Shown: positions 51,634 to 58,744 of the stretch, one piece after another | How the letters are laid out: every line of letters begins with the position of its first letter | How positions within the stretch are numbered: the first letter of the stretch is position 1 | Assembly: GCA_944389025.1 (NCBI GenBank) | Contig: CALXKU010000015.1 | Span: forward strand, 1 to 58,816 | Reading direction: 5' to 3' | DNA from: an uncultured Spirochaetaceae bacterium | Lineage (GTDB): Bacteria > Spirochaetota > Spirochaetia > Sphaerochaetales > Sphaerochaetaceae | Length of the DNA: 58,816 bases | Program-made: the position numbers and the translations under genes | Notes under the pieces: generated by a model | The model's input: the letters and a program-made list of their open reading frames with translations, nothing else | Databases searched by the model: none | Told to the model about the DNA's origin: nothing

Positions 51634-51663
51634 TTGACAATCGCTTTTAGGGGGGGGCATACT
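51634..51663 (+). promoter_or_regulatory. Promoter with a G8 tract in its spacer (phase-variable candidate)
   Basis: TTGACA (51634-51639), an 18-base spacer that ends in eight G (51650-51657), then CATACT (51658-51663). AGGAGG stands before ATG 51689. Each gain or loss of a G changes the -35 to -10 distance, so expression of the lipoprotein should switch with tract length; with seven G the spacer would be 17. Confidence 0.7.
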
Positions 51664-51688
51664 GAGTAAAACAACTTAGGAGGACCCT

Positions 51689-54600
51689 ATGATAGGCAAA
51701 AGGAAAGCAGCCATAATGCTGTGTCTGATAAGTCTTTTCGCCTTCCTTCTCATTTCATGCCCATCAGAGGTGGAAATGCAGAAGCTCAGTTTGCCCGTGA
51801 TTGAAAGTTCCAGTTCCGAAATCAATGAGGATACGATAATCACGATTAAAACCAATGAAGGCGCAACCATTTATTATACTGAGGACGGATCGGATCCGCG
51901 TGTCTCAGATAGCAGGAAAGAGTATGTAGAAGCTTTCAAACCTGCACTCGATAGCAGTATTGTAATAAAGGCATATGCCACCATGTCTGGCTATATTGAC
52001 TCGGATGTGGCGGAGGCTGAGTTCAAATACTCTGGAAATCTTCCAGCTCCTGTATTCGAAATTGAAAACGACGCAGTCATTCCTTTTCTCAATGTCAAAG
52101 TCATTGTGAATGCAGCCCAGGGCTATGTTGTGCATTACACCTTGGATGGCAGTACCCCGAATGAGAATAGCAATAAAGCGGAGAATGGTCTTATTGATCT
52201 ATCATCTTTTGCAGGGGAGAGTGTGACTATCAAGGCATATGCTGCGAAGGAGGGGATGGAGAATTCTGAGATTGCAACAGTGACTTACCAGAAGAAGAAA
52301 GTAAGCTCTCCTGTAATTAATCCTGAGAGCAAGAAATTCCTGGAGCCAATCGAGGTCTCAATTACAGCGGAAGAAGGGGCGATGATATATTACACTCTGG
52401 ACGGAAGTGAGCCATCCTCTTCGTCGACACCATATAAGAAGCCTTTCTTACTCGAGAAAGCAGCGATATTGAAAGCCATAGCGGTTATGGAAGGCTGCAC
52501 AGATTCAGAGATTGCGATTGCTGAATACTCATCAAAGACACCGGCTCCTGTCATCACGCCCGAAGATGGTATCGTACCTTTCATAGCGGATAATATCACA
52601 ATTGAAGCGGGGGAGAATGACAGGATCTACTATAGCACGAACGGAGATGATCCTGTTCTGAGTGGAGAGTATAAAACCGGATCAGTTACTCTTTCCATGA
52701 TGGAAGCGGGGGTAGTGAAAGCCATAGCAGTCAGAGATGGGTATGAACCATCCGAGCTTATATCGCTTACGATAAAGCAGGCTCAGTTACCTGAACCTGT
52801 GGTAAGCTATCCAGATCCATTCATCTTAGGGGAATCAAAGATAACGATCACATCTGAAGTTGAAGGGGTTAGCCTGATTTATGATTCCTCCGAGCCGATA
52901 GAAAATGCTTATACCGGGCCTTTCATCTTAAGTGAAGCAGATATCTTTAACGGTAATTATACTTTGATTGTAGAAGCTAAGAAGGATGGATATAAGCCAT
53001 CATATTTGCGTGAGACGATATGGGTTTATGAAAGGGATGATTCCCTTCCTGTATTCTCCCTTCCCGAGGGGATACCGAATGCTCAAAATATGACTCTTAA
53101 GATACTCGCACCGGGATCTGTCCGCTATACGACGGACGGCTCAGATCCAACCACAAAATCTGAAATTGGATCTTCCATTAACCTCTCATCTCAAATCAGG
53201 ACGGTTAAGGCAATCTATGTGATGACAGGAGATAGGAGAGTCAGCAATGTTGCAACCCTAAACCTTTCAGATGCCAAAGATCCTTCGCTGGTAAATGGTG
53301 AGTGGATCTCATTTACTTCCGATTTCTCCATCCAAGATGGTAGGATAACAACAGGTGATTATAATAACCGTGTTATTTTGGATTATGCCATCAGCGATGA
53401 TGTCTTAGCTGTTTCCATTAATGGTAATGATGATATTAACAGTGAATACATATTCGATGAGGCATCTCTTACTCTAACAATGGGTGAAGATACAATAAAT
53501 CTTACAAAAGGATATGGAAACACCTATGAAGGGGAGGGCGTAACACTTATCCTGAATGAGGAGGCTTTCTCTCTTTCAATAGATGGAACGTATGAGAGTG
53601 GAACGGTGGAAGGAAGCACGCTTAAAGCGGACAAGACGGTTCTTCTTTCTGACATATCAGATGTAGATGTTGCAAAAGGTCCTGTCTCGATTCCTAAGAT
53701 TGGCACAGTATACCGTCGTCCTGAATTCACTATTACCCCTGAAAGGGGTGCGGCTATCGCGGTAAATGAGGAAGTTGAGATTACATTGAGCTATGATACT
53801 CTTCCAGAAGGTATCAGCATAGGTGATGAGATTACCTACGAGTTACATTCCGATAATGGTGACTCCTCTTCCGGTTCATTCGTATATGGTAATTCTGTGA
53901 AATACACACCAACAGTTTTATCACTCTCTTACGAATTCACAATTCCAGTGAGCCTTTCTGATGAGGGTAAAAGGAATTTCGTAATTGGTGGTGAGTATAA
54001 TGTGATGGAAAGATATGGAATACCTTATGTGGGACCTTACACGGTACTTACCGATGCTTCCATGAAAGGTGATGGCATTGAAGTGGGGATAAGGGATCTT
54101 GATTCTACTTATAACGGTAATAACCTCTATTTCAATATTTCATCAGAATATAATGGAAATGATTTTGTATTTAATCCGAACCGTACTTTTCCAAATGGCT
54201 ATAAAGATAAAGTAATGACCTCCAATGATGATACTTTCACTCAGACCGGGGCAATGAAGGGTCACCTTGATAACGCTTCTGCTGATAAGCTGCCATCGAA
54301 ACAGAATATAAAGACATTCTATACATCGGATGATACTGCCGGCTCTCTTTCCGATACTACATGGTCCGGTTCGATGGAGCTAGAAAGCTTTGGCCCTATT
54401 ACTCTAACTCTGACGGTGGATGAAAACTGCGACTATGAGGTATATGCGGATTCGCTTGGGACTGCCTATAAGGGGAAGGCACGCTACAGCGAAGAGAAGA
54501 ACATGATTCTCATTGATTTCAAGAATGACAATCAGCTCAAGATGAATGATAAGCCTTACTTTATGAGTGTAAATTTAGATTATACATATAATTCTGCTGA

Positions 54601-54940
54601 TGATTCTCTTACTATCAATGATATTGTGTTCTACCGTGCATCTGGAGATAAGGGCAGTGCAGAAGGCTACTGGATTGAGAAGAATAATGATGATGAGATT
54701 ACAAGAAGTGAGTTCGTCCTCGATGGAGAATGGATTTCCTACCGTGGCAATCTCTGGAGTGGCAACCAGGAAATCTATATCTATGAGGGAACTTTCAGTT
54801 ATGACGATAATGGAGATATCACATTCCCTGAATCTACAGGAGAAGGAATCGATAATTATTACATCCTTTCCTATCCTTGCTTGAGAGATGATGGCAACAC
54901 TCTTTTTGTTGCTGGTCTTGATTTTACTAAGTCAAATTAA
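51689..54940 (+). CDS. Surface lipoprotein with about six chitobiase-like repeats
   Basis: 1083 residues. Signal peptide II with lipobox L-I-S-C (Cys 24). From about 40 to 530 there are six copies of a beta-rich repeat, each with a core like TIYYTEDGSDPRVS, HYTLDGSTPNEN, IYYTLDGSEPSS or RYTTDGSDPTTK and ending K-A-I/Y-A-V; these match CHB_HEX_C-type (chitobiase C-terminal) domains common in spirochaete surface lipoproteins. The C-terminal half is unrecognised and contains two similar segments, GEWISFTSDFSI and GEWISYRGNLWSG. Outer-membrane or periplasmic lipoprotein; may bind host or polysaccharide. Preceded by a promoter with a G8 run. Confidence 0.82.
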   Translation: MIGKRKAAIMLCLISLFAFLLISCPSEVEMQKLSLPVIESSSSEINEDTIITIKTNEGATIYYTEDGSDPRVSDSRKEYVEAFKPALDSSIVIKAYATMSGYIDSDVAEAEFKYSGNLPAPVFEIENDAVIPFLNVKVIVNAAQGYVVHYTLDGSTPNENSNKAENGLIDLSSFAGESVTIKAYAAKEGMENSEIATVTYQKKKVSSPVINPESKKFLEPIEVSITAEEGAMIYYTLDGSEPSSSSTPYKKPFLLEKAAILKAIAVMEGCTDSEIAIAEYSSKTPAPVITPEDGIVPFIADNITIEAGENDRIYYSTNGDDPVLSGEYKTGSVTLSMMEAGVVKAIAVRDGYEPSELISLTIKQAQLPEPVVSYPDPFILGESKITITSEVEGVSLIYDSSEPIENAYTGPFILSEADIFNGNYTLIVEAKKDGYKPSYLRETIWVYERDDSLPVFSLPEGIPNAQNMTLKILAPGSVRYTTDGSDPTTKSEIGSSINLSSQIRTVKAIYVMTGDRRVSNVATLNLSDAKDPSLVNGEWISFTSDFSIQDGRITTGDYNNRVILDYAISDDVLAVSINGNDDINSEYIFDEASLTLTMGEDTINLTKGYGNTYEGEGVTLILNEEAFSLSIDGTYESGTVEGSTLKADKTVLLSDISDVDVAKGPVSIPKIGTVYRRPEFTITPERGAAIAVNEEVEITLSYDTLPEGISIGDEITYELHSDNGDSSSGSFVYGNSVKYTPTVLSLSYEFTIPVSLSDEGKRNFVIGGEYNVMERYGIPYVGPYTVLTDASMKGDGIEVGIRDLDSTYNGNNLYFNISSEYNGNDFVFNPNRTFPNGYKDKVMTSNDDTFTQTGAMKGHLDNASADKLPSKQNIKTFYTSDDTAGSLSDTTWSGSMELESFGPITLTLTVDENCDYEVYADSLGTAYKGKARYSEEKNMILIDFKNDNQLKMNDKPYFMSVNLDYTYNSADDSLTINDIVFYRASGDKGSAEGYWIEKNNDDEITRSEFVLDGEWISYRGNLWSGNQEIYIYEGTFSYDDNGDITFPESTGEGIDNYYILSYPCLRDDGNTLFVAGLDFTKSN

Positions 54941-54956
54941 ACTTACCTGCTTTACT

Positions 54957-54994
54957 TCCCGTCCTTTCTTTTTGAGAGGGGACGGGATTATTTT
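54957..54994. terminator. Bidirectional terminator between lipoprotein and ATPase genes
   Basis: TCCCGTCC (54957-54964) pairs with GGACGGGA (54980-54987) over a 15-base loop; followed by TTATTTT on the plus strand, and preceded by AAAGTAAAG-type T-rich sequence on the other. Lies between convergent stops. Confidence 0.65.
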
Positions 54995-56367
54995 ACGAAT
55001 TCGTCTGTTGTAATAAGAACAATCCTCTTGTCTCTTTTTGCTTCTTCAATTATTTCAGAGTCAAAGCTGGAGCGTGAGAGAAGATAATATTTTCTTATGC
55101 TGCAGGCTGTTGCTATTGAGGCTTTTCTTTTTAGATCTTCAAGTACGTTTAGTCCTATCTTGTTTTTCTTCCACTTGCATTCTCCAAAGGAAACTGTACC
55201 ATCGTCGTATTTTATAACGAGATCTATTTCCTCATTTACTTTGGTATTAGGATTTGCAAACTCTCCATATCCTGCTTCAAGCACATTCTCAGGATCTAAG
55301 GTGAGGACGAATCGTAAAAAATCCTTCTCTATGGCTTTTGAAACGAAGAGAGAGATTTCTTCATTCATTTTTCCGACCTCTATGTTTATATCATTTTCTA
55401 TTAAGAGCTGACGAGGTGCTACAAATTTATAATAGAATGCGAAGAAGTTGTCGGAGATAATCCACTTTTTCTTATCTTTCTCACGCAGTATGTTTGTCTT
55501 CTGCTCACAGATTCTTAGAATTCTGAGCTTGTTAAGGGCTGCACTTATATTACTCTTATCCATATGGGACTTGTCCGATATCTCATTATTGACATTTGCC
55601 CCCTTTGATATAAGTCGAAGTATGGTATCATATGTGGCAAAATTTCTAACAGATGATGAGAAAAACAATTTGACTTCATTAAACAGTCCACCTAATGAAT
55701 TGAAGAGAACTTTTTCCAATGCCTCATTGAGATTCGGATAATCTTTGAATGCTTTAAGGTAAAATGGAATTCCTCCTGAGATGACATGAGCATTTATTTT
55801 ATCGTCAATGCTCCAGCAAGGATTAAGATAGTCAATACTTTCCTGAATTGTGAAAGCCCTAAGTTCGATTTGAAGTGGAATCCTTCCATATAAAGGGCCT
55901 TCAGTGCTCAAAACCTCTGATTCAATATATGAGATTGAAGAACCTGAAATAATCAGCATCAAAGAATTGTTATCCTGATTCTGGTCAACTAAACGTTGTA
56001 GGACGCTTAGCACTGTTCTATCTTCTTTTCTTGCGATGTAAGGAAGTTCATCTATTACGAAAATCAGTTTTTCTTTCCCTTTGTAGGAGAATACAGCTCT
56101 AAAAGCATCATCATAGCTTGTGTAGCTTACGCCATCAGAGCCAAAAAGACTTTCCCCTATGAGACGGGAGAGTTCGGTTAGATTGCTTGCATTGTTCTCA
56201 CTGGCTTGGAAAAAGATGTTTTTTTTGTTTTTTATAAAATTACGGATCAGAAAACTTTTCCCGACTCTTCTTCTTCCATATACGACAGCAGCTGAGAAAG
56301 CTTCTTTTTCGTATTCTGCTTTAAGAGCCTCAAGCTCTTTCTTCCTTCCTATGAAGCGCTGTTCCAT
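54988..56367 (-). CDS. AAA+ ATPase with DUF234/PD-(D/E)XK-like C-terminus
   Basis: About 459 residues. Walker A VVYGRRRVGKSFLIRNF, Walker B KLIFVIDELPYIA, sensor region LMLIISGSS. A winged-helix-like segment (about 225-300, KSHMDKSNISAALNKLRIL) follows, then the C-terminal EEIDLVIKYDDGTVSFGECKWKKN with the E...D...E-C-K of a PD-(D/E)XK nuclease-like fold (DUF234). These ATPases are widespread in archaea, Bacteroides and spirochaetes, role unknown. ATG 56367 (MEQRFIGRKKEL) is chosen; another Met is two codons upstream. The upstream region has tandem repeats, suggesting autoregulation. Confidence 0.8.
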   Translation of the reverse strand: MEQRFIGRKKELEALKAEYEKEAFSAAVVYGRRRVGKSFLIRNFIKNKKNIFFQASENNASNLTELSRLIGESLFGSDGVSYTSYDDAFRAVFSYKGKEKLIFVIDELPYIARKEDRTVLSVLQRLVDQNQDNNSLMLIISGSSISYIESEVLSTEGPLYGRIPLQIELRAFTIQESIDYLNPCWSIDDKINAHVISGGIPFYLKAFKDYPNLNEALEKVLFNSLGGLFNEVKLFFSSSVRNFATYDTILRLISKGANVNNEISDKSHMDKSNISAALNKLRILRICEQKTNILREKDKKKWIISDNFFAFYYKFVAPRQLLIENDINIEVGKMNEEISLFVSKAIEKDFLRFVLTLDPENVLEAGYGEFANPNTKVNEEIDLVIKYDDGTVSFGECKWKKNKIGLNVLEDLKRKASIATACSIRKYYLLSRSSFDSEIIEEAKRDKRIVLITTDEFVK

Positions 56368-56390
56368 AAGCAATAATATATATTGTAAAA

Positions 56391-57505: not shown

Positions 57506-58744
57506 ATGGACGACGAGGCTAGGAAAGCGAAGAACAGGATCATCAAGGAGAAAGGCAGGGAGACGCGTCTCCGCCATGCCTCCATGCGCCCCGTCGTCAT
57601 CGAGCTCAAGCTCGACCTGAAGTGTCTGAACAATGCAGAGCGTGATAAGCTCTTCCTGTATTTCGCTGAATGCAGATGGCTCTGCAACTACCTTATCGGG
57701 CTTGAATCCGATAAGTTCAAGAACTTCAGCACAAAGACGCGTGGCATCACTTCCCTTGATAAGGACGGCAAGCCCGTCGCAAGGAGCCTGATGATGCCTG
57801 CCAAGTTCATACAGGCCGTATACTCGTCCCTGAAGCAGGACATGAGCTCGCTTGCCGCAAAGCGCAGGAAGACAGGGAAGAAGAACGGGAAGCTGAAGTT
57901 CCGCTCATCCTATGATTCCATCGAGCTCAATCAGTATAACGATACCCACTGGATATGCTTCGGCCCGGGCGGCAATGCGAACGGCAGGTATAAGAATACC
58001 GTGCATATCGCGGGGATAAAGAGGCCGATACGCGTATTCGGGATGGATCAGATTCCTGCCGATGCTGAATGCGCCAACGCAAAGCTCGTGAAGAGGGCAT
58101 CGGGCATATACCTCATGCTGACATGCTACATCCCGAAGCATGATGGGACAGCTGAAACGGAGAAGAAGCCGGGCATCGGACTTGATTTCGGCATAAAGAC
58201 AACGATAACGACCTCGGAAGGAGAGAAATTCGACATATCGGTCCAAGAACAGGAGCGCCTCAAGGGCCTGCAGCGGAAGCTCGCAAGGCAGGTGAAGGGC
58301 TCCGGGGGCTGGCGTGATACGAAGCATCGGATCCAGAGGGAGTATGAGAGGCTCGCCAACAAGAGGCGTGCAAAGGCCAATCAGGTATATCACGATATCG
58401 TCACGGACAGGGGCCTTGTAGTCATGCAGGATGAGAACATCAAGGGCTGGCACAAGGGACTCTTTGGGAAGCAGGTGCAGAATTCAGCACTCGGCACGCT
58501 CAAGAGCAAGCTCAAGGCGAATGAGAATGTGCTGATGATAAACCGCTTCTTTCCGTCGACGAGGATGTGCCCGGTCTGCGGACATATACATGAGGATATC
58601 ACGCTCTCAGACAGGGAATTCGTCTGCCCTGCGTGCGGATATGCCGAAGAACGTGATACGAAGGCCGCGAAAACGCTGCTTCTTGCAGGTGGGCATGAGA
58701 TAGCCTGCACGCTTCCGGAACAGAAGCGTACTCCGGTGGAGTGA
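57506..58744 (+). CDS. tnpB: TnpB-family RNA-guided nuclease, intact
   Basis: 412 residues. RuvC residues: IGLDFGIKTTI (Asp), VVMQDENIKGW (Glu) and ERDTKAAKTLL (Asp). Zinc ribbon CPVCGHIHED...CPACGYAEE. Start codon: ATG 57506 lies only 5 bases after an extended -10 TGGTATAAT (57492-57500), so translation may be leaderless or begin at the Met 26 codons later (57584), which would fit the usual TnpB N-terminus better. Distinct in sequence from the other two TnpB proteins. Confidence 0.85.
   Translation: MDDEARKAKNRIIKEKGRETRLRHASMRPVVIELKLDLKCLNNAERDKLFLYFAECRWLCNYLIGLESDKFKNFSTKTRGITSLDKDGKPVARSLMMPAKFIQAVYSSLKQDMSSLAAKRRKTGKKNGKLKFRSSYDSIELNQYNDTHWICFGPGGNANGRYKNTVHIAGIKRPIRVFGMDQIPADAECANAKLVKRASGIYLMLTCYIPKHDGTAETEKKPGIGLDFGIKTTITTSEGEKFDISVQEQERLKGLQRKLARQVKGSGGWRDTKHRIQREYERLANKRRAKANQVYHDIVTDRGLVVMQDENIKGWHKGLFGKQVQNSALGTLKSKLKANENVLMINRFFPSTRMCPVCGHIHEDITLSDREFVCPACGYAEERDTKAAKTLLLAGGHEIACTLPEQKRTPVE

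Follow-up and report, generated by a model that had tools for sequence, protein, structure and literature searches.

A poly-G promoter spacer upstream of a spirochaete lipoprotein gene belongs to a genus-wide promoter class and is a candidate for phase variation

The window, the whole stretch of 58,816 nt that was analysed (contig CALXKU010000015.1 of an uncultured Spirochaetaceae bacterium), carries a large lipoprotein gene preceded by a predicted promoter whose spacer ends in eight Gs. The features of the locus, with the -35 and -10 boxes assigned by consensus from the sequence, are:

51634 to 51639, + strand: -35 hexamer TTGACA, a consensus match, the identical hexamer occurring at 237 sites in the genus
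51640 to 51649, + strand: spacer leader ATCGCTTTTA, 10 nt, the modal leader length of the promoter class
51650 to 51657, + strand: G8 tract directly adjoining the -10, the putative slippage tract
51658 to 51663, + strand: -10 hexamer CATACT, 4/6 to consensus, total spacer 18 bp
51678 to 51683, + strand: Shine-Dalgarno sequence AGGAGG
51689 to 54940, + strand: lipoprotein of 1083 aa, with signal peptide, lipobox LISC and five CHB_HEX_C_1 / Fn3_assoc repeats
54957 to 54987, + strand: terminator-like hairpin immediately 3' of the lipoprotein gene

The original prediction placed TTGACA and CATACT 18 bases apart, with a spacer ending in G8, in front of a large lipoprotein with chitobiase-like repeats, and both the coordinates and the gene are as it described them: the full spacer (51640-51657) is ATCGCTTTTA followed by G8, and the 1083-aa product carries the LISC lipobox and five CHB_HEX_C_1 repeats. 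The TTGACA/CATACT pair is the sole 10-of-12 sigma-70-type match in a promoter scan of 50.5-52.0 kb, and the lipoprotein ATG at 51689 is 25 bp downstream of CATACT. The CHB_HEX_C_1 / Fn3_assoc repeats (n=5) are confined to the N-terminal half of the protein, and the C-terminal half has no Pfam match. Because the terminator-like hairpin directly follows the gene, the arrangement suggests a single-gene transcript. Further downstream are an AAA ATPase (54988-56373) that contains DUF234 and whose C-terminus is Mrr-like, and an OrfB_IS605 / TnpB-like protein (57506-58744).

Three other readings of the promoter region were considered and rejected. A tract position of the tpr type (overlapping the -10 or at the start of transcription) does not fit, as the window tract stops just before the predicted -10; an invertible promoter lacks flanking inverted repeats, the only pair being of chance size (10 nt, 584 nt apart, within coding sequence); and the leader has no Rfam match to an RNA element or riboswitch. 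A lone G8 run is expected 0.95 times by chance in the window, so the tract by itself is not significant, and a simple promoter scan of the window gave no excess over shuffled sequence; the window alone could therefore not settle the question. The weak -10 (CATACT, 4/6) was counted against the reading as a phase-variable promoter.

The comparative evidence comes from the genus, where genome-wide site counts were obtained by pattern searches. The pattern TTGAC-N(1-13)-G8, searched in 60 relatives, was frequent in same-genus genomes and nearly absent in the reversed control, and the stricter TTGACA-N(1-16)-G6+-TA occurred at 237 sites in 36 of 48 genus genomes against 1 in the reversed control (table sum), with up to 16 sites per genome. 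The class is non-random and lends strong comparative support to the promoter reading at the window. The arrangement had been predicted as a feature of one gene; it is present there, and is in fact a promoter class found across the genus. Of the 150 sites listed, 108 have a leader of 9 or 10 nt and 135 have a tract of G8 to G12. In the complete site sets of six genomes, a lipoprotein signal peptide lies directly downstream of 55 of the 60 sites, with the start codon mostly 26-43 nt past the tract; the baseline is 4 of 44 long frames in the window, where the same rule (a lipobox called by sequence) was applied more generously. The lipoprotein target foreseen for the window gene likewise gains strong comparative support. 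A class restricted to poly-G was rejected, since poly-C in the equivalent spacer position also precedes some lipoproteins. Flagellin was absent from all nine genus genomes searched for it. Ribosomal proteins L2 and S3 gave their best match to 8fmw, the Borrelia ribosome, and with the missing flagellin this points tentatively to a non-motile family of spirochaetes such as Sphaerochaetaceae. Several poly-G lipoprotein promoters (L040, L065-L067 in G012, L047 in G008, L061 in G019) have one end of an apparent IS3-like element some tens of bases before them.

The window's own genome holds a small set relative to its genus relatives, with few such sites and only two strict ones (TTGAC-N(1-13)-G8, 2 vs. 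0 in the reversed control), a low number that was counted against the phase-variable promoter reading. A lipoprotein gene begins shortly after four of its 15 G/C runs of at least 8: C2:46291 (poly-C), C3:1240, the window run on C15, and C20:36742 (no clear -35). Two further runs, a G8 and a C8 (G000:C13:65453, L014:1501-1508; G000:C38:6406, L023:1501-1508), lie within lipoprotein genes directly after the lipobox and are currently in frame, and may possibly be translational contingency loci beside the promoter ones. Similarly, G/C8-10 runs in apparent DNA methyltransferase genes (L006/L008/L009, G000:C4:99149-102324; L019/L022, G000:C33:510-1950), one of the two regions having intein-like sequence, could possibly give phase-variable methylation. 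Beyond the genus, a similar pattern was found in 69 of 393 phylum genomes, mostly of the same class, with two reversed-control matches. In G328, from another family of that class, 8 of the 10 sites retrieved precede lipoproteins and the spacer is mostly 15-16 bp, and in G392 (same class) the tracts are G12-G16.

Full-length orthologues of the window lipoprotein were found in only two of the 48 genus genomes, G010 (52% identity) and G020 (48%); in named genomes its relatives were only distant CHB_HEX-repeat proteins from gut Lachnospiraceae and Bacteroidales MAGs, which were not informative. The G020 orthologue has TTGACT-7 nt-G10-TATTCT (spacer 17 bp), and the G010 orthologue TTGACA-9 nt-GGGGTGGGGG-TATTCT (spacer 19 bp), with an interrupted G run. 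The flanking genes, within the flanks retrieved, differ in all three genomes, yet both orthologues retain a G-rich spacer, which indicates that the promoter travels with the gene.

Tract length differs between promoter copies that otherwise match. Two copies in G019 agree at 134/134 non-tract bases and carry G10 and G9; in G063, two copies identical at 108/108 non-tract bases carry G9 and G8; and in G028, two copies identical at 57/57 non-tract bases, and at 50/50 bases upstream, carry G9 and G10. Tract length differs in 14 of 24 near-identical promoter pairs, although these pairs are not independent, and one pair of orthologous lipoprotein promoters has G8 in the window's own genome (C3, L004) and G9 in G017 (L043). 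These comparisons cover copies within one genome and one orthologous pair, at loci other than the window, and almost all of the sequences come from assemblies, where a homopolymer may be off by one base in any single case. Slippage, as originally proposed, gains strong comparative support from promoter copies that differ only in their number of Gs.

Spacer lengths peak at 19 and 18 bp among the 150 sites listed. Pure long tracts have scattered spacers, mostly 16-22 bp with a mode of 19 bp, which exceeds the textbook optimum of 17 bp for -35/-10 spacing and was counted against the phase-variable promoter reading. The spacer is 18-19 bp in 14 of 15 short (G5-G6) or interrupted tracts before lipoproteins, vs. 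90 of 139 pure tracts (Fisher p = 0.04, a comparison chosen post hoc). A strictly fixed total spacing would make leader and tract length negatively correlated, but no such correlation was found (rho -0.12, p 0.15). Promoters of the genus without poly-G numbered four among the loci retrieved, too few for a comparison. The preference of short and interrupted tracts suggests that 18-19 bp is the working distance in the genus and that other lengths would be weaker states, in which case the window promoter (18 bp) would be ON. For the predicted tuning of transcription through spacers of 17, 18 and 19 bp, comparative spacing favours 18-19 bp over the textbook 17 bp, and this preference gives indirect support to a dependence of transcription on tract length.

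Taken together, we consider it very probable that the lipoprotein gene is driven by a phase-variable sigma-70-type promoter in which the G8 run is the part that varies, and that the locus is one of a genus-wide set; on comparative grounds, transcriptional phase variation by slippage is the preferred interpretation. During replication, slipped-strand mispairing would add or remove Gs in the tract, and the G number would shift the -35 relative to the -10 (G7 giving 17 bp, G8 18 bp and G9 19 bp). This spacing would determine how efficiently RNA polymerase transcribes the lipoprotein gene, which starts 25 bp past the -10, the assembled 18-bp state being predicted ON. Each promoter of the set (as many as 16 in one genome, almost always before lipoproteins) would switch independently, so that a clone would yield a mosaic of surface coats.

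The main alternative is a fixed promoter element, in which the G run is contacted by a sigma factor or regulator and marks a co-regulated lipoprotein regulon, with its length constrained and no switch. The tract always adjoins the -10, which is fixed by the search pattern yet also true of sites found without it; the class is specific for lipoproteins; and among the 150 sites listed the leader frequently ends in AC or ACC. A ptsI-like gene (G019:C137, G033:C1; L196, L203) has a conserved promoter of fixed spacing, TTGACA-GATGGGTAAAGGC-G5-TAGAAT, and this housekeeping promoter with G5 beside the -10 implies that short runs of G may be a normal part of promoters in these bacteria. However, otherwise identical copies differ in tract length, spacers are widely spread, and poly-C replaces poly-G at some lipoprotein promoters, a substitution incompatible with base-specific contact; we judge a fixed element unlikely. 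Less probable still are recombination cassettes, where identical promoter-plus-signal-peptide blocks reflect gene conversion and the chief role of the G tract is to mark or promote recombination, not to tune transcription. Blocks of ~60-134 bp in G063 and G019 are identical between loci with differing upstream flanks, and contigs often end at such blocks, but this leaves unexplained the 18-19 bp preference of short or interrupted tracts, the fixed distance to TTGACA and the many sites with distinct leaders. Chance placement of a G8 in one gene's promoter, for which the expectation of about one run in the window and a promoter scan no better than shuffles could be cited, is contradicted by the genus counts (237 vs. 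1) and by the G-rich spacers of both orthologues, and is the least credible of all.

Returning to phase-variable promoters, their position before lipoproteins in nearly all cases means that G gain and loss probably switches the surface coat. A broader version is a genus-wide combinatorial switch of as many as 16 lipoprotein genes in a genome, every one behind a poly-G spacer promoter of its own, where the promoter-signal-peptide block has spread and been homogenised between genes and some members are locked by a substitution within the tract; we hold it to be evenly balanced between true and false. If true, the related Treponema-family sets with another usual spacing (15-16 bp) would indicate that the strategy is old in this bacterial class. 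In this uncultured spirochaete lineage without flagellin, such promoters appear to have become a standard means of driving lipoproteins, and one may ask what need these bacteria have of variable surfaces. The promoters also offer hundreds of naturally occurring variants in which the effects of spacer length and G tract on transcription could be measured, and a simple sequence signature by which switchable lipoproteins might be predicted in other genomes of the bacterial class.

Accounts of promoter-homopolymer phase variation have dealt with single genes, mostly those of pathogens. In Bordetella, several paralogous surface genes (fim) each have their own promoter homopolymer, as here, but these are a handful of fimbrial genes with poly-C and dependence on an activator. 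A literature search found no such system for this lineage, which is weak evidence of absence. According to PMC7864442, which for this gene cites earlier work, Treponema pallidum tp0126 (an OmpW homologue) has a poly-G between -35 and -10 with transcription optimal at 17 bp, and Neisseria meningitidis porA has a poly-G between the boxes with transcription dropping off the optimal spacing. As in tp0126/porA-type loci, the homopolymer in our class lies between the -35 and -10 (boxes by consensus), tract length varies with constant flanks (between copies and orthologous promoters, at loci other than the window), and the product is an envelope protein by the lipobox rule (55/60 sites and the window lipoprotein), with surface exposure predicted. 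The original prediction invoked both tp0126 and tpr of T. pallidum, and on the same source only the first is apt: tp0126, the closest case with transcription data, shares the poly-G between boxes, the envelope protein target and a spacing-dependent optimum. The tprE/G/J and tprL genes are alike in that a poly-G of variable length modulates surface-protein transcription, but the tract of tprL takes in part of the -10 and those of the other tpr genes come shortly before the transcription start, leaving the box spacing unaltered (PMC7864442, for tprL). tp0126 itself is a single outer-membrane-protein gene of a flagellated Treponema, whereas here there are up to 16 sites per genome before lipoproteins, with a preferred spacing of 18-19 bp, in another family; porA, alike in its poly-G between the boxes, is a single gene for a porin and comes from an unrelated phylum. 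The mechanism is therefore already known singly, in tp0126 and porA, and its scale and dedication to lipoproteins in a flagellin-less genus outside Treponema are new as far as our literature search shows.
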